Assembly (NCBI GenBank): GCA_947372355.1
Contig: CANBTI010000020.1
Span: forward strand, 1-34,987
Length of the DNA stretch: 34,987 bases
Origin: Bdellovibrionales bacterium
GTDB taxonomy: Bacteria; Bdellovibrionota; UBA1018; CAIMNF01
Direction of reading: 5' to 3'
Position numbers and translations under genes: made by a program. Positions within the stretch are counted from its first letter, which is position 1. Each line of letters begins with the position of its first letter. Shown here one piece after another: positions 1,193 through 7,863 of the stretch. The notes under the pieces are model-generated. The model did not search any database. It was not told the origin of the DNA and saw only the letters and a list, made by a program, of their open reading frames with translations.

Positions 1193-4100
1193 TTAAATAA
1201 CTACTTCAATCGGCACGAACCCACTCATGCTCTTAGGGATTAGCTTTACCCCAAGGCCTTCGCAGCGGTCTCGAATGTTCTTTTCTTCGTATCTGCTGGT
1301 CACTAGGATGGATTGCTTATGAATGCCAAGATTTTCAATCAGATCCAATCCATTTTCACTGGATCCGGATATTTCATAATCCATTAAAAAGAGAGCCTCA
1401 TCTAGATCGGTAAAGTTTTTACCATAAAACTTACGAAGCTCCGTTGGATCACTGAAGTTTCTCACTTGAATTTGTGATCCATTCGGAACTGATTCCAATC
1501 TACCCTTCCAGATTTGGTGAATGGATTGATCATCATCAAATACAATGAGGGTTTGATTCGTTTTTAATTTAATCGCAGGCACAAACCAAGCGGGTTCATT
1601 TTCTCTGGGTAGAAAAATTGAAACTTTTGTTCCGTTTCCAAGTTTAGAATCGATTTCCAAAGAACCTTGAAAAGATTTGATGGTTTCCATTGCATGAAAA
1701 ATCCCAAGACCCGACCCGTTTTCTTTGCCGTAGGTTTCCCCTCTTTTGCCAAGCTTAGAGAGAATATCGGCGGGGATCCCCTTACCATTATCTTTAATCG
1801 TGAGTTCAATTTGGTTCTTATGGTTTGTACCCATAATGAGCTCAACAGATCCTTGGTTATCTTTAAACGCTTCTACGGCGTTATTAATGAGGTTAGATAA
1901 AACCCGCTGAAACTCTATGGGTTGAATTTTAGCAAATAAACCATACGAATCCTTTGATTGATTAAAATCAATTTGCACACCAATCTGATTTCGATACTGA
2001 ATTCGTTTCTCAGTAATAATGGAATCTACCAGTGGACCAAGCAATGTGTTTGAAAATGATTCTGTTTGAACCACTTCATTTTGAGTGGATAAGTCAGATT
2101 CAATTGAAGCATTTTTATTTAGTAATGAGTTTGCAATGTCTCGAATGCGATTAATTGAGTTTCTAATAATGAGGCGTTTGTCTTCAGGAAGTTCACCTAA
2201 AGAACCAGAAATCATTTCAAGTGCAGCGAGTGGTGAGCGAATGTCGTGGGAGACTTGTGATGCAACCCTAGAAGAGATCTCTTGAGCAAGTGCATGTTCT
2301 TTAAGCCTACTATAAGAACTAAGCTCTTGGGAAAGATCTCGAAATTCTGAAATAACAAATTGATCATTTGGCAGCACTTCTTTCCTTCTTAAGCTTTCCA
2401 CTTCCTTAATAATTTGCTTTGATGCTTGCAAAATTAGCATAAACAGAAAAAAACCAAGCAAACTATATCCAATTAAACTAGTCAGTACACGATGTAACAC
2501 AGCCGTATTAATTTCTGCGTAATCACAATACAATTCGACGTTTGCAGCTAGATTCCTACCTTCCTCATCATAATAGATTGGAGATACCATACGTCTAACA
2601 TATGCCCCCTTAGAGAAAGTCTCACATCTTCCCAAAGCCGCCGCATTGATTGTGACTACAACACAAATATCGGGAACCTGTTTTTGAATCGAACCCAATC
2701 TTGTAAGAATTTCGGTATAGCTACCCTGCCTCGCTGGTTCCTTTAACGCAGCAGTCAGCGCATTTAATACAATTGTATTACTATTTTCCTTAATTAAAGT
2801 TGAGGAACGCCTATAAGTTAGCAGATCAATACCTATCAAAAATACCAAACAAAGTGTTGTGGTTCCAATTATGGCCCTAGTTAAATAGCTCTTTAAAGAG
2901 GTGGCTAAAAGGTAAACAGGATTTTTATCGGAAATTATCAAGCCGTAACTGAAAAGCGTGAGTACCATAACACCAATAAAAAAAATTATTTCAGATGGGA
3001 ATGCGTACTTAAATATCAATCCAAAAAAAGCGATGACACCAAAAGAAAACAAACCAAACACTTGCCCAACGCTACTCCAAGTTGCTCTAACCGCTTCCGG
3101 TAATTGCTTTATTATGTTTGAGGAGATCCAGCTTTGTATCAGCTGACCAAAAGTTGCTGAAAATATACAAAATAGAAATAAAATAACTGCATTCGGAAAA
3201 GCCCGATCAACGAGGAACTTACAAAGCAAAGTCATAGAGCTAAGAACAAGTAAAACAACAGGTGCAATTTGAAATACTTGTTGAGCTCCAAGCTTGGCTA
3301 CCTTTGATGACAAACTCCTGGAAGTAAGCACGCTAATCAAATTAATCGCCAGCCCAACAACAGTACCTTTAATCCACAATCTTTGAATATCAGGACTATC
3401 AACTCTTAGATATTTATATATTTCGCCATATAGATAGAAACTTGTACCTAGAGTTAAAAGCACTGAAATTCCGTATAAAACTAAAGGTGTAGACTGAAGA
3501 GCAATAATGTCTTTAACTGAAAATCGATCTCGTTTGCTTTTATGAATTACTGAATTGCTTACAAACTTTAAATCACCAATTACCCTTGAATAGACTACAA
3601 ACCTAAGAAAGAAAACAAAACCTATTAGCATTAGAAAAACTACGTTTGCATTGAGGTGACCAAAGTAAAATCCTAGTGAACCAATCAATAACGAAAAAAT
3701 AGGTAAACCGAAACGAACTGGAATTGCATACTTAAAAGCAGAAACAAAAAGTGGCGGTATGCTTGAGCCACCAATAACTACACTCTTTAAGTTTTCTTCA
3801 TACCATTTTCCATATGCCGCTGCATATGCTCCGTTGATAAATGCACCTGCAAACGCGTCCACAACTGCTTCGCCTCCAATAAAACCCCAACTCAACGTTG
3901 TCATACCCGCGTGAACCGACATTACTGCTAAGGCGAATAAAAATGTGGTTATGAATTTCAGCCTTAATCCGATTTTAATCGATTGATACCATCCAAACTT
4001 ATCTGCGAATCTCCCAGTAGGGATTTCCAATAGACCGCTTATGCTTAGTTGTAAAAATGCATTTCCTAGAATGCCTTTCGCACCAAATGCAGGTGTAGTT

Positions 4101-4201
4101 GCTATAATTGAAAGCAGAATTAAATTGGAGGAAAGCGCCGTACCCCTAAAGAGAGCATCGCTTAGTGCGAAATGTTTTACGTAGTCTATTGGCTTTTTCA
4201 T
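1193..4201 (-). CDS. MFS transporter - histidine kinase - receiver fusion protein
   Basis: This 1002-residue protein has three parts. Residues about 1-425 are a 12-helix-like MFS domain carrying a motif A (GRFADKFG, 63-70). A further helix (about 441-461), an extracytoplasmic loop (about 465-573, with Cys513, 526 and 559) and another helix (about 574-592) follow, as in ordinary membrane sensor kinases. The cytoplasmic kinase has an H-box SHDIRSP (His652), N-box NLINNAVEAF (770-779), G1 DNGKGIP (804-810) and G2 GSGLGIF (829-835). A receiver at about 883-1002 has Asp889-891, phosphoacceptor Asp941, Thr968 and Lys990. All key residues are present, so it should be catalytically competent. The ATG overlaps the stop of the upstream binding protein (ATGA), implying translational coupling. 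The MFS part could export or sense a ligand captured by that binding protein. No DNA-binding output domain is attached. The domain calls are sure; the role is inferred. Confidence 0.9.
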   Translation of the reverse strand: MKKPIDYVKHFALSDALFRGTALSSNLILLSIIATTPAFGAKGILGNAFLQLSISGLLEIPTGRFADKFGWYQSIKIGLRLKFITTFLFALAVMSVHAGMTTLSWGFIGGEAVVDAFAGAFINGAYAAAYGKWYEENLKSVVIGGSSIPPLFVSAFKYAIPVRFGLPIFSLLIGSLGFYFGHLNANVVFLMLIGFVFFLRFVVYSRVIGDLKFVSNSVIHKSKRDRFSVKDIIALQSTPLVLYGISVLLTLGTSFYLYGEIYKYLRVDSPDIQRLWIKGTVVGLAINLISVLTSRSLSSKVAKLGAQQVFQIAPVVLLVLSSMTLLCKFLVDRAFPNAVILFLFCIFSATFGQLIQSWISSNIIKQLPEAVRATWSSVGQVFGLFSFGVIAFFGLIFKYAFPSEIIFFIGVMVLTLFSYGLIISDKNPVYLLATSLKSYLTRAIIGTTTLCLVFLIGIDLLTYRRSSTLIKENSNTIVLNALTAALKEPARQGSYTEILTRLGSIQKQVPDICVVVTINAAALGRCETFSKGAYVRRMVSPIYYDEEGRNLAANVELYCDYAEINTAVLHRVLTSLIGYSLLGFFLFMLILQASKQIIKEVESLRRKEVLPNDQFVISEFRDLSQELSSYSRLKEHALAQEISSRVASQVSHDIRSPLAALEMISGSLGELPEDKRLIIRNSINRIRDIANSLLNKNASIESDLSTQNEVVQTESFSNTLLGPLVDSIITEKRIQYRNQIGVQIDFNQSKDSYGLFAKIQPIEFQRVLSNLINNAVEAFKDNQGSVELIMGTNHKNQIELTIKDNGKGIPADILSKLGKRGETYGKENGSGLGIFHAMETIKSFQGSLEIDSKLGNGTKVSIFLPRENEPAWFVPAIKLKTNQTLIVFDDDQSIHQIWKGRLESVPNGSQIQVRNFSDPTELRKFYGKNFTDLDEALFLMDYEISGSSENGLDLIENLGIHKQSILVTSRYEEKNIRDRCEGLGVKLIPKSMSGFVPIEVVI

Positions 4202-5670
4202 TGATTCAACAAATCTGTAACCTTTGGCGTATACCTTAGGTTCGAATCAGGCTCTTCAAGTGGTTTGCTAGTAAAGGTAAAATCGGTCGTCTTCCATGCC
4301 GGTATAAGCCAACTCTCTTTTACTAATGTACTATCGAAATCTCTAAATAACTCCGACCTCTTTGACCAAGAAAGCTCTTTAGATGCTGAAACTAGTTTTG
4401 TGTTTAGTTCATTTGAATAACTACGGACAGAATTTTTTACAATTTTATTTAAAATTGGTAGAAAGCCTTCCGGATCATTAAACCCACCAGCCCATCTATT
4501 AATGATTATATCAACGTCATGTAAATCAATATTGGCAATATTATTCTCTTCAATTACTTTTAATTTTATACCATGTATCGACTCAATGCTTTTAATTAGG
4601 TCTACATCAACCACTTCTCCCATGAGCCTAGTAGGGAGAACGATTGTAATTTTAGACCAATCAGCATGTTTAGCGACAATTTCTTTGCTTTCGATGGATT
4701 TATTTTTTGGAAACACTATTTCATTTATTATATGTCCACTTACTCCTATAGGAATTAGGCCGTAAGCCGGCTGTAAGTGTAATGTGTTTCTTCGATTTTG
4801 AATTAGCTCTCTAAAAATAGACATTTTAAAATGTCTCGCCGGGGTACTACCAGCATTTGGACCGGTTGGATTCCACCATGCTAAAGTCTGTGTAAAACCT
4901 ATTCGAGGTTTAATTAGATACTTGCTCTCATCAAATTTTTTATTTTTTCGCAATAGATCGATCTGTGCCTGATTCAATGCTGGAGCAAAATTTGGAAGTT
5001 CGTCAATACTTTCCAAATCATTTAGATTCTTTGGTAAAAAAACAATACGCCATTCCTCATTGTTTATTTTTTTCTCATTGCGGAACTTACTGTTTTTTAT
5101 ATATATCCAATCTTTTTCCCTCTTCAAAAGCCTATAGGCTCCACTCCCAATATAGGGTTCTGATGAATGTTGGTCAAAGGACCACTCAGCAGGTACGATT
5201 CCTAAGTGATCTCGACTCAATATTTTCAGAATTGCGACTTGTGGCTCAGTTAACTCAATCGCCAACTCTGAGTTAGAAATTATTTTTATTTTTTTTATAT
5301 TCTTTAGTAACGGGTAGGATTGAGACTTGTTGTTTTTCCATTGTCTGCTCAATGAATATTCTACATCCTTGGTAGTAATTTTTTTTCCATTTGAAAAGGC
5401 AACATCGTCACGAATGTGAAAGGTCAACCGAAGTCCATCTTCGCTCACTATCCAAGAATCTGAAACTGATGGCGCTATATTTCCAAATTGATCTGAAATG
5501 ACCAAAGGCTCGAGCACATGCCCTATCGCCATTTGCTCTAGATAGGTATCGAACTCAATTGTATCTCTTGGAAAAGTTGTGGGAATTAGACCAATTGTTC
5601 TCATAATTGCGTTTGCCTCAATATTCAATAAGAAAGATAAAATAATAATTAAAGTTTTTAATTTAGACAC
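4198..5670 (-). CDS. Family-5 (oligopeptide-type) extracellular solute-binding protein
   Basis: The 490-residue product has a signal peptide (residues 1-21, ending NIEANA) and the family-5 pattern EPLVISDQFGNIAPSVSDSW at about 54-73, then LTFHIRDDVAFSNGKKITTKDVEYSL at about 82-107, seen in DppA/OppA-type proteins that bind oligopeptides or other small solutes in the periplasm. GSGAYRLLK and FNDPEGFLPIL are further family-like segments. The GTG start at 5668-5670 has a Shine-Dalgarno AGAAGGTG eight bases upstream and lies inside the end of the HExxH gene (13-base overlap). No ABC permease or ATPase accompanies it; instead its 3' end overlaps the MFS-kinase fusion. I infer that it captures a ligand, possibly the local peptide, for that sensor or transporter. 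The region is visibly more A+T rich than its neighbours. Confidence 0.85.
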   Translation of the reverse strand: MSKLKTLIIILSFLLNIEANAIMRTIGLIPTTFPRDTIEFDTYLEQMAIGHVLEPLVISDQFGNIAPSVSDSWIVSEDGLRLTFHIRDDVAFSNGKKITTKDVEYSLSRQWKNNKSQSYPLLKNIKKIKIISNSELAIELTEPQVAILKILSRDHLGIVPAEWSFDQHSSEPYIGSGAYRLLKREKDWIYIKNSKFRNEKKINNEEWRIVFLPKNLNDLESIDELPNFAPALNQAQIDLLRKNKKFDESKYLIKPRIGFTQTLAWWNPTGPNAGSTPARHFKMSIFRELIQNRRNTLHLQPAYGLIPIGVSGHIINEIVFPKNKSIESKEIVAKHADWSKITIVLPTRLMGEVVDVDLIKSIESIHGIKLKVIEENNIANIDLHDVDIIINRWAGGFNDPEGFLPILNKIVKNSVRSYSNELNTKLVSASKELSWSKRSELFRDFDSTLVKESWLIPAWKTTDFTFTSKPLEEPDSNLRYTPKVTDLLNQ

Positions 5671-6434
5671 TGCGAATACACCTTCTCGATCATCATATTT
5701 GCCAGTTGGGTGAGTTCATCGGATTTTAATGTTTGGCAAGTCTGCTCCAGCAATTGTTTGTTTTTATCGGCGTTAATTTCAATTGATTCTTGGAATTGAA
5801 TCATTCGATAGAGAACATGCGCTGAGTGTAATCTTCCAATAGTGGGTCTATTCTTTTTTTGCAGTGGAGCATATTTGAAATTTTGATCACCCTCTGCTGC
5901 AACTAACCTGTCAGTTGTATTAATAAGAAACAATTCATGGTGAGCTAATTCATGAACAAGGGAAAGCGCAAGCTCTTCTTTGCTTACCTTCATCAAAGCC
6001 TGTGATGCAATTAGGCATCCAAATATGAGTGGTGAAGATGCGGCCTTAAAGCTACAACCGCTTACAACTAGAGTATTTGTTATTGTTGAGTTGAAGATTT
6101 CACTTAAGCTTCGATCATACTCAACGAGGCAAGTCCAAATTCTATCAACTTCAATTTTAGAGACCTGCGTTTGCGGAAGCGGCTCGTAACCAGGCACCGA
6201 GGCTCTAGTAAACTTATTATTTACGTCAATACTAAGCCCATTAATCGATGTTTGAAATTCAACATTAAATTTTAATTCAAGATCATCTAAAATCCGGTAG
6301 TAGGCAGCTGTCTTTATAAAAAGCGGCCATTCAGAGGCAATAGAGGGGTCTAAGCGGGAAACTAGTGCCTGTTCAAAGACCCCAATGAGTCTTGGGATTA
6401 CCCAACGTCCTGCTTGTAATTCCCCAATAATCAT
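5658..6434 (-). CDS. HExxH protein resembling aKG-type RiPP peptide beta-hydroxylases
   Basis: The 258-residue product has no signal peptide and should be cytoplasmic. Its C-terminal half shows SLVHELAHHELFLI (HExxH at 161-165) followed by FKYAPLQKKNRPTIGRLHSA (186-205). I recognise this arrangement from the 'HEXXH motif' family tied to ribosomally made peptides, now described as alpha-ketoglutarate-dependent peptide beta-hydroxylases: a Ser-rich segment before the motif, a hydrophobic strand entering HExxH, then Y-A-P-(W/L)-...-R-P-...-G-x-(L)-H. His161, His165 and His203 or His206 are candidate iron ligands. It starts three bases after a 24-codon ORF, so precursor and enzyme would be co-translated. 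Its end overlaps the binding protein. The alternative is a zinc peptidase that cleaves the same peptide. Family assignment comes from memory of the motif, not from a search. Confidence 0.7.
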   Translation of the reverse strand: MIIGELQAGRWVIPRLIGVFEQALVSRLDPSIASEWPLFIKTAAYYRILDDLELKFNVEFQTSINGLSIDVNNKFTRASVPGYEPLPQTQVSKIEVDRIWTCLVEYDRSLSEIFNSTITNTLVVSGCSFKAASSPLIFGCLIASQALMKVSKEELALSLVHELAHHELFLINTTDRLVAAEGDQNFKYAPLQKKNRPTIGRLHSAHVLYRMIQFQESIEINADKNKQLLEQTCQTLKSDELTQLANMMIEKVYSQCLN

Positions 6435-6437
6435 TGA

Positions 6438-6512
6438 TTAATGTTCGTCGACTCTAGCTTCTGCAAAAATAGTCTCATTAAAAATATCTAGATTAATTGT
6501 TGTTGTTTCCAT
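6438..6512 (-). CDS. 24-residue small ORF, candidate RiPP precursor peptide
   Basis: This ORF has an ATG at 6510-6512, a TAA at 6438-6440 and a strong Shine-Dalgarno AGAGGAG (6522-6528) nine bases upstream. It is the first gene behind a good promoter, with a leader of only about 20 bases, and ends three bases before the HExxH gene. Residues 6-18 read INLDIFNETIFAE and contain a tandem five-residue near-repeat, DIFNE then TIFAE; the C-terminus is ARVDEH. Candidate sites for side-chain hydroxylation are Asp9, Asn12, Asp22 and His24, but nothing in the sequence selects among them. It has no signal peptide and no double-glycine leader, so export would need a dedicated route, perhaps the MFS domain downstream. 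It could instead be only a translational-coupling leader; the strong ribosome site argues for real translation. Confidence 0.65.
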   Translation of the reverse strand: METTTINLDIFNETIFAEARVDEH

Positions 6513-6537
6513 GTCAAGCTACTCCTCTACGTCGTTG

Positions 6538-6566
6538 ATTTTACAGCAGGTCACACATTGCGTCAA
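6538..6566 (-). promoter_or_regulatory. Sigma-70-type promoter of the peptide/HExxH/SBP/MFS-kinase operon
   Basis: On the minus strand TTGACG (-35, 6561-6566) and TAAAAT (-10, 6538-6543) are separated by exactly 17 bases. The predicted start near 6531 leaves a leader of about 20 bases carrying only the Shine-Dalgarno of the 24-codon ORF. This is among the best consensus matches in the window. Confidence 0.7.
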
Positions 6567-6757: not shown

Positions 6758-7279
6758 CTACCTCCCCACCAAAACCTTCCCCTTAAAATACTCCATCACT
6801 TCACCCGTATCCCACTTCTGTGCTCCCACCCACTTCTCCATCACTTTTCCTTTTGGATCGAAAAAATAAGTTTCAGGATATTGGTAAGAGCCCAACATCT
6901 CGGCAAGCGCATGTTCATGATCGAGTAAGAGCATAAAATTCGCGGGAAGTCCTACTCCCTGATTTGGCAAAATCGATTTTGAAATCTCCAGCGATTCATC
7001 CAAGCTCACGGCTACAAATTTTAGGTCTGGTAATTTTTCTTGAGCGATACTGGCAAAGTTCACTAAGTGAGGAATCTCCTCCGCGCATGGCGCACACCAC
7101 TTTGCCCAAAAATGGAGAATAAAATAATGTCCCTCTACTGCCTTTCGTTCAAAACCAGGAACGGTCTGCAATTGAGAGTAAATGTCATTATTTTGACCCT
7201 TATGCTTAAAAAACCCATAAACCTGGGCTAAAACGACAACGAATAAAATTGAAAAACCCACTATATACTTACGTTTCAT
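6758..7279 (-). CDS. TlpA/ResA-like membrane-anchored thiol-disulfide oxidoreductase
   Basis: The product (173 residues from the chosen start) has an N-terminal anchor helix (about 5-24) and a thioredoxin fold with the active site FWAKWCAPCAEEIP, where WCAPC lies near residues 61-65. A cis-proline-type segment (GSYQYPETYFFD) and WVGAQ near the C-terminus match the TlpA/ResA group. These proteins reduce disulfides in the periplasm, often for cytochrome c maturation or protein repair; the client here is unknown. The frame could begin at a GTG at 7300, but the ATG at 7277-7279 has AAGAGGGA just upstream and gives a normal signal-anchor, so I prefer it. It is divergent from the HNH gene across only 47 bases. 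Confidence 0.85.
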   Translation of the reverse strand: MKRKYIVGFSILFVVVLAQVYGFFKHKGQNNDIYSQLQTVPGFERKAVEGHYFILHFWAKWCAPCAEEIPHLVNFASIAQEKLPDLKFVAVSLDESLEISKSILPNQGVGLPANFMLLLDHEHALAEMLGSYQYPETYFFDPKGKVMEKWVGAQKWDTGEVMEYFKGKVLVGR

Positions 7280-7288
7280 GATTCCCTC

Positions 7289-7318
7289 TTGTTGGCTCAC
7301 CCCATTCTAAATTATCAT
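7289..7318 (+). promoter_or_regulatory. Possible promoter giving a near-leaderless HNH mRNA
   Basis: TTGTTG (7289-7294) and TATCAT (7313-7318) are 18 bases apart. Transcription would begin about two bases before the ATG at 7327, which has no Shine-Dalgarno, consistent with a leaderless or nearly leaderless mRNA. The match is only moderate. Confidence 0.3.
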
Positions 7319-7326
7319 TAAATAGT

Positions 7327-7863
7327 ATGGAAGGTCGGGCCCTTCTTTTAAATGCTTCTTTTCAGCCACTCCAAGTGATCCCTTGGCAAAAGGCTCTTCA
7401 GCTTTTTTTCTCGGGTAAGGTAGAAGTGGTTGAATCATCAGATCGCACAATTCGATCGGTTTCAATATCGATTCGGATGCCCGTGGTAATTCGTTTATTA
7501 AAATACGTTCCTCCCGGTAGAAAAAACATCGTTCGCTTCAGTCGTAACAATGTTTTCTTGCGAGATCATCATACTTGCCAATATTGCGGCAAAAAACCTC
7601 AGCAAAGCCAACTCACCATGGATCACGTGATCCCAGTAGTAAAAGGTGGCCCTAAAACTTGGGAGAACATCGTCACCGCTTGCCATTCCTGTAACGTAAA
7701 AAAGGGGGGACGCACCCCCGACGAAGCCCAGATGAAACTCCGCAAGCCCCCTAAACAACCCATTTGGCTTCCGTTCATGGGATTGAACATCGATTTCACC
7801 AGTAGTCCTGAATACATTCGTATTTTAGTAAAAAACTATGCAGGTGATGAGCCTGAGAGTTAG
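7327..7863 (+). CDS. HNH endonuclease family protein
   Basis: The 178-residue product has the conserved N-terminal segment ALLLNASFQPLQVIPWQKAL (residues 5-24) seen in a widespread family of small chromosomal HNH proteins, then an HNH core: CQYC (84-87), TMDHVIPVVKGG (97-108), WENIVTACHSCN (112-123). Asp99-His100, Asn114 and Cys119/Cys122 supply the metal-finger and catalytic pattern. The biological substrate of this family is not established to my knowledge; the domain predicts metal-dependent nucleic-acid cleavage. It stands next to a divergent TlpA-like gene and is followed after 12 bases by the next plus-strand gene. There is no restriction-modification partner nearby. Confidence 0.85.
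   Translation: MEGRALLLNASFQPLQVIPWQKALQLFFSGKVEVVESSDRTIRSVSISIRMPVVIRLLKYVPPGRKNIVRFSRNNVFLRDHHTCQYCGKKPQQSQLTMDHVIPVVKGGPKTWENIVTACHSCNVKKGGRTPDEAQMKLRKPPKQPIWLPFMGLNIDFTSSPEYIRILVKNYAGDEPES

Follow-up and report, generated by a model that had tools for sequence, protein, structure and literature searches.

A four-gene operon of a Bdellovibrionales bacterium as a likely self-contained RiPP pheromone circuit

Background

The closest described systems on the biosynthetic side are RiPP clusters with an aKG-HExxH enzyme. In the pfl/pos clusters of Pseudomonas the enzymes PosC and PflC cut the chain oxidatively at the Ala of ARMD, leaving a C-terminal amide, and the preceding Gln residues are hydroxylated. 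The substrates read IFDTQQQQ-ARMD or IFDQQQQIQ-ARMD, and PosC no longer cleaves once the Ala has been replaced by Ser or Gln (PMC12636437). In the pes cluster (nitrilobacillins) the HExxH enzyme PesO oxidises the residue before Arg as well, by beta-hydroxylation of the Pro of PR(V/T)DN at the end of a very short precursor (PMC13060819). Characterised HExxH enzymes of two kinds are therefore known to act directly before R-(M/V/T)-D. A third relative is ChlH (PDB 8s5f), the HExxH domain of ChlB; its substrate is a cyclophane peptide, and a radical SAM enzyme is fused to it.

On the sensing side, LuxP-LuxQ-type systems combine a periplasmic binding protein with a membrane kinase that has a small periplasmic loop; LuxP itself is a sugar-type substrate-binding protein (SBP) for AI-2. 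The agr and com systems of Gram-positives put precursor, modifying and exporting step, kinase and response regulator in one operon, without an SBP. PrgZ/OppA (PDB 4faj) are family-5 SBPs that bind peptide pheromones and feed an importer. Among Gram-positives, gene-encoded, enzyme-modified peptide pheromones are familiar; hardly any are known from Gram-negatives.

The operon presented here shares its aKG-HExxH enzyme with pfl/pos, and the core of its peptide (...IFNETIFAE-ARVD) resembles the C-terminus of the Pseudomonas substrates (...IFD(Q)n-ARMD; PMC12636437). Ala directly before R-x-D, the mark of a PflC/PosC-type substrate, is present in this peptide, although the Ala is not conserved in its family. 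Pfl/pos clusters additionally encode a long NHLP leader, an MNIO-nitroreductase, an acetyltransferase and transporters, with no SBP or kinase described (PMC12636437), whereas the present operon has four genes only and a leaderless precursor of 24 aa. Very short precursors and an HExxH enzyme are also found in pes, together with MNIO, nitrile synthetase and peptidases, and no SBP or kinase is mentioned in the text searched (PMC13060819). Fold and catalytic pattern are shared with ChlH, the fusion to a radical SAM enzyme is not. Unlike LuxP, the SBP is OppA-type with a gene-encoded peptide as candidate ligand; unlike PrgZ/OppA, it is accompanied by no ABC permease gene. The operon logic is that of agr/com, with other chemistry and outside the Gram-positives. 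Overall, the logic is that of known peptide quorum sensing, with parts that are unusual and widespread in one phylum. We found no published system of HExxH enzyme, SBP and kinase, and no peptide signal described for Bdellovibrio-like bacteria, in the open-access literature searched.

Results

Layout of the operon

The operon lies in Bdellovibrionales bacterium GCA_947372355.1, contig CANBTI010000020.1, positions 1-34,987 (this whole stretch of 34,987 nucleotides is further called the window). Reading of its ORFs gives four genes at 1193-6566, all on the minus strand:

6538..6566, minus strand: promoter-like site TTGACG-17-TAAAAT (10/12 match, joint-best of the region)
6438..6512, minus strand: ORF of the 24-aa precursor peptide METTTINLDIFNETIFAEARVDEH (24 codons, leaderless)
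5658..6434, minus strand: aKG-HExxH enzyme gene, 258 aa (TIGR04267 and ChlH fold match)
4198..5670, minus strand: family-5 SBP gene, 490 aa, GTG start (PF00496, signal peptide)
1193..4201, minus strand: MFS-HK-receiver fusion gene, 1002 aa (domain matches and homologous fusions)

The 24-codon ORF is preceded by AGAGGAG and separated by a 3-base gap from the HExxH gene, which overlaps the SBP gene by 13 bases; the SBP and fusion genes overlap by 4 bases. The full cassette (tiny peptide, HExxH enzyme, SBP, MFS-HK fusion) is also present in a congener (G008, locus L005) and in an Oligoflexales MAG (L096), the latter with a fusion that has no receiver. Since the congener has the same genes, identical 13- and 4-base overlaps and a peptide of equal length, the operon is not a chance arrangement.

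A first-pass annotation, made from the sequence alone, had described one good promoter, a short ORF with a ribosome site and three coupled genes behind it. The latter two elements held, and the gap and both overlaps were confirmed. The promoter is less secure: promoter-like sites are not enriched over shuffled sequence (12 observed vs 18.6 in shuffles), so that only its position supports the site at 6566-6538. A TTGACT site is seen at a similar place in G008.

To the right of the operon (window 6758-7863) thioredoxin-like and HNH endonuclease genes are found, with synteny kept in congeners. The left-flank gene was not found in congeners and hence a clean empty site could not be shown.

The HExxH enzyme

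The 258-aa protein scores 54.3 bits against TIGR04267 (aKG-HExxH-type peptide beta-hydroxylase), against a curated cut-off of 40. Alignment of 13 window-type enzymes shows H161-E162-x-x-H165, D175-R176, Q192, R196-P197, R201 and H203 to be invariant, and the profile of these enzymes finds ChlH (PDB 8s5f) at E=1.4e-11. The AlphaFold2 model (pLDDT 90) matches 8s5f by fold as well (E about 2e-8, TM up to 0.72), and in the fold search ChlH and SjiH rank ahead of any peptidase. Profile and fold thus place the protein in the aKG-HExxH family; that it performs an Fe/2-oxoglutarate-dependent peptide oxidation is inferred.

The precursor family

The core of the window precursor, INLDIFNETIFAE-ARVD, ends in Ala-Arg-Val-Asp and belongs to a gapless core common to the precursors, NLDIFxxxxF[SG]E-x-R-V (aligned cores: window INLDIFNETIFAEARVD; L005 INLDIFNDTVFSEARID; L096 INLDIFLEDSIAEPRVD; L069 INLDIFDDEIMSEARVS). 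Further leaderless precursors occur in L055, L068, L079 and L084; in L055, L068, L069 and L084 the peptide ORF sits between the SBP and HExxH genes. Other loci encode precursors of 92-102 aa with a Sec signal and a C-terminal core (L045, L050-L053, L083; variants in L056, L058, L063), and in L060 and L078 the Sec-signal precursor is a polyprotein, with six tandem cores in L060 and five in L078. The L006 precursor has two cores, whereas for G015, with SBP-HExxH-HK present, no precursor was found.

Between the window and G008 the peptide gene differs at 7/3/8 sites in codon positions 1/2/3, without indels. In a less circular test, a profile built from the three tiny peptides only was searched against 802 kb translated in six frames; the first matches after its own members were L069 (1.3e-6), L006 (3.5e-4), L078 and L060, and L084 (0.63). 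Throughout the 369 genomes all core matches better than E=0.01 sit at HExxH loci, and no stretch outside these loci matches the core better than E=0.012. As the phylum searches used profiles from known cores, these figures demonstrate specificity and not independent discovery. Summarizing, the 24-codon ORF encodes a member of a conserved precursor family.

A second candidate class of precursors consists of 144-163-aa Sec-signal proteins just before SBP-HExxH-HK, without an R-x-D core and in most cases with a terminal SF(I/A) motif (RHSFIR or DHSFA, for example):

L054:3672-4154
L066:3788-4270
L070:8170-8637
L073:3525-3992
L076:8205-8687
L077:3548-4015
L080:5574-6008
L081:3780-4271

Predicted chemistry

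The residue before Arg varies among relatives (A, S, P, T, V, L, I): the window has Ala19-Arg-Val-Asp, L096 Pro-Arg-Val-Asp. Because PosC/PflC and PesO act directly before R-x-D, Ala19 is the predicted target, and a likely product is METTTINLDIFNETIFAE-amide. By this analogy Ala19 is the most likely oxidation site of the window peptide, the modification itself being inferred. The first-pass annotation expected a +16 Da product; by the PosC/PflC precedent, Ala19 may instead be the site of an oxidative backbone cleavage, with a C-terminal amide remaining. Such cleavage cannot be shared by the whole family, given the variable residue before Arg and the need of PosC for Ala, and a common Ala-directed cleavage in all members was rejected.

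Linkage across the phylum

TIGR04267 matches were obtained in 132 of the 369 genomes of the phylum. A scan of genome contigs with a single protein found no loci, against 13 for an alignment-based scan. The compared set comprised 53 stand-alone HExxH loci including the window, with several of the loci that lack the full set cut by contig ends. In 33/53 loci the HExxH gene has an SBP and a HK gene as same-strand neighbours, joined in 21 of these by a sigma-54 (NtrC-type) response regulator. The genes recur in two orders, HExxH-SBP-HK (the window type) and SBP-HExxH-HK. With no more than about nine SBP_5 genes in the window genome, chance adjacency would be about 1 per cent, and the observed adjacency of HExxH and SBP genes lies far above it.

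The operon is absent from 10/12 congeners and is consequently an accessory trait. In G008 (L005:7988-11915) it lies near genes resembling conjugation and type IV coupling proteins. Together with the absence from most congeners, these neighbours make horizontal transfer possible.

Binding protein, kinase and export route

The SBP matches PF00496 (SBP_bac_5; E=2.3e-26), carries a signal peptide and is of the OppA/MppA/AapF/PrgZ type by relatives and fold. No permease or ATPase genes were found beside it in the window operon, and none were evident in the related operons inspected. The fusion protein is organised as follows (residue numbers):

~1-430: MFS transporter-like part
443-461: TM1, followed by a periplasmic sensor of ~110 aa
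~572-598: TM2
H652: HisKA
761-867: HATPase
D941 and K990: receiver

HATPase_c is above its cut-off at 67.7 bits; HisKA reaches 22.1 bits (under the cut-off of 26.9), with an H-box SHDIRSPL present. The receiver motifs are DDD...MDYE...IPK. Related kinases likewise have two TM helices around a periplasmic segment. An SBP without ABC genes and a two-TM kinase with a ~110-aa loop would suit LuxPQ-like sensing, an inference by analogy. The window receiver has no output domain, and relatives supply a sigma-54 regulator; no response regulator adjoins the window operon, and a partner was not singled out among the 21 sigma-54-type matches in the window genome.

The MFS part has 12 hydrophobic stretches and no Pfam match in the window protein. 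Its homology to the stand-alone MFS proteins encoded in sister loci is distant (hhalign 94%, E=1.2e-7); of the latter, those of L055 and L069 pass MFS_1. Fusion to the kinase is seen in the window, L005 and L096, a separate gene in L055, L068, L069, L079 and L084. The precursor is leaderless in 8/8 MFS loci and has a signal peptide (called by a simple hydropathy rule) in 11/11 loci with related precursors but no MFS (Fisher p=1.3e-5, uncorrected for relatedness). It is thus likely that the MFS part carries the peptide across the inner membrane, although export remains an inference.

Discussion

The operon can best be read as a self-contained RiPP pheromone circuit, autocrine or quorum-type. 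We regard this as likely; chemistry, export, identity of the ligand and output are inferred and no experiment supports them, while the genes, their conservation and linkage, the precursor family and the enzyme fold have been demonstrated. Counting against it are the varied residue before Arg, the absence of a response regulator adjoining the window operon, the MFS part without Pfam match, the SBP-HExxH-HK set of G015 without a precursor and the absence of the operon from most congeners. In the proposed mechanism, the 24-aa leaderless precursor would be made in the cytoplasm, where the aKG-HExxH enzyme would bind the INLDIF...EARVD core and oxidise it, most likely at Ala19. Following the PosC/PflC precedent this could cut the chain to the amidated peptide METTTINLDIFNETIFAE; otherwise a beta-hydroxylation would result. 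The MFS part of the fusion would probably move the peptide through the inner membrane, a step for which the Sec signal peptide of the precursor may serve in relatives without MFS. In the periplasm the OppA-type SBP would capture the peptide, and the complex would be read by the loop between the kinase TM helices, as LuxP is by LuxQ. The signal is predicted to pass via His652 to receiver Asp941 or to a response regulator, which in relatives would be the NtrC/sigma-54 activator encoded next door.

The first-pass annotation had likewise proposed that the cell makes, modifies, moves, captures and senses a short peptide, and had named three outcomes that would refute it: no match of the HExxH protein to the RiPP-linked family, no conserved short ORF upstream in related loci, and genes that never occur together. 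None of these was observed, as the family match is above cut-off, conserved short precursors exist and the genes recur together (33/53 loci, full cassette in L005 and L096). The proposal is supported for the parts and their linkage; modification, export, binding by the SBP and sensing of the peptide by the kinase stay inference. Its remark that no described system with this gene order was known also stands after our search of the open-access literature.

Four alternatives deserve attention. Firstly, the peptide might be an exported effector (an antimicrobial or metal-binding RiPP), with SBP and kinase only reporting its level for feedback or self-protection. Many RiPP operons carry their own regulators, and the PflA/PosA relatives stem from a biocontrol context (PMC12636437, PMC7726476). 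Nevertheless, we consider this unlikely: most clusters are limited to a precursor, a single enzyme, an SBP and a HK, to which a response regulator is often added, with no immunity gene or dedicated ABC exporter; the cores have no Cys; and an SBP without permease fits sensing. Secondly, the MFS part might be a sensor or importer instead of an exporter. MFS-type sensors do exist (UhpC, with its partner UhpB), and the part is fused to a kinase in three genomes. This too is improbable, as MFS is a separate gene in five loci and its presence coincides exactly with precursors that lack a signal peptide. Thirdly, the HExxH protein might be a peptidase that releases the pheromone by a hydrolytic cut, without any oxidation. 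The HExxH fold is of zincin origin, and PflC without leader hydrolyses the same site (PMC12636437), the window precursor being leaderless. This explanation is very unlikely, given that the nearest solved folds are the aKG-dependent ChlH and SjiH and that the RP..GRLH pattern of the aKG family is conserved. Finally, the reading of the ORF as a translated leader (attenuator) and not a substrate, suggested by its tiny size and first place in the operon, 3 bases ahead of the enzyme gene, is all but ruled out and was rejected, since the core is conserved at the amino-acid level across families, recurs inside Sec-signal precursors of 92-295 aa and as tandem repeats, is found by the three-peptide profile, and in four loci is encoded between the SBP and HExxH genes.

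The pheromone circuit, our preferred explanation, has the practical merit that the sequence names each component, from precursor and tailoring enzyme to export route, binding protein and kinase, which opens it to direct tests with synthetic peptides. It would give aKG-HExxH enzymes a candidate biological role in signalling and a candidate substrate rule, the residue before R-x-D, open to checks in many natural substrates. A bolder reading, for which the balance tips slightly to the negative side when its parts are taken jointly, is that of a phylum-wide and undescribed class of Gram-negative peptide pheromones, used among predatory and related Bdellovibrionota. In that reading the precursors would be leaderless or Sec-exported, some of them polyproteins, and oxidised by a dedicated aKG-HExxH enzyme; some products would be C-terminally amidated, recalling animal neuropeptides; and capture by a periplasmic OppA-type protein would be followed by readout through a dedicated kinase.

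Other HExxH clusters

Several loci differ in content from the window type. The polyprotein cores of L060:7929-8816 and L078:7769-8557 end in (S/A)R(V/I)EIL, and the cluster also encodes a 334-339-aa protein resembling an NAD-dependent epimerase. In L006:6753-10088 (G057) the two-core precursor and the HExxH enzyme have no SBP or kinase nearby, and the HExxH gene adjoins a protein with JmjC-like sequence features. In L048:5806-9125, L057:5504-8892 and L067:3568-6901 the HExxH gene is part of a different cluster with two more genes (about 367 and 460-477 aa). Short ORFs (MSIKEMIKKVTAKD.. and MSIEEIIEAVTAEE..) ending in MIMIAFD precede the enzymes of L048 and L067; this is a different RiPP-like type.
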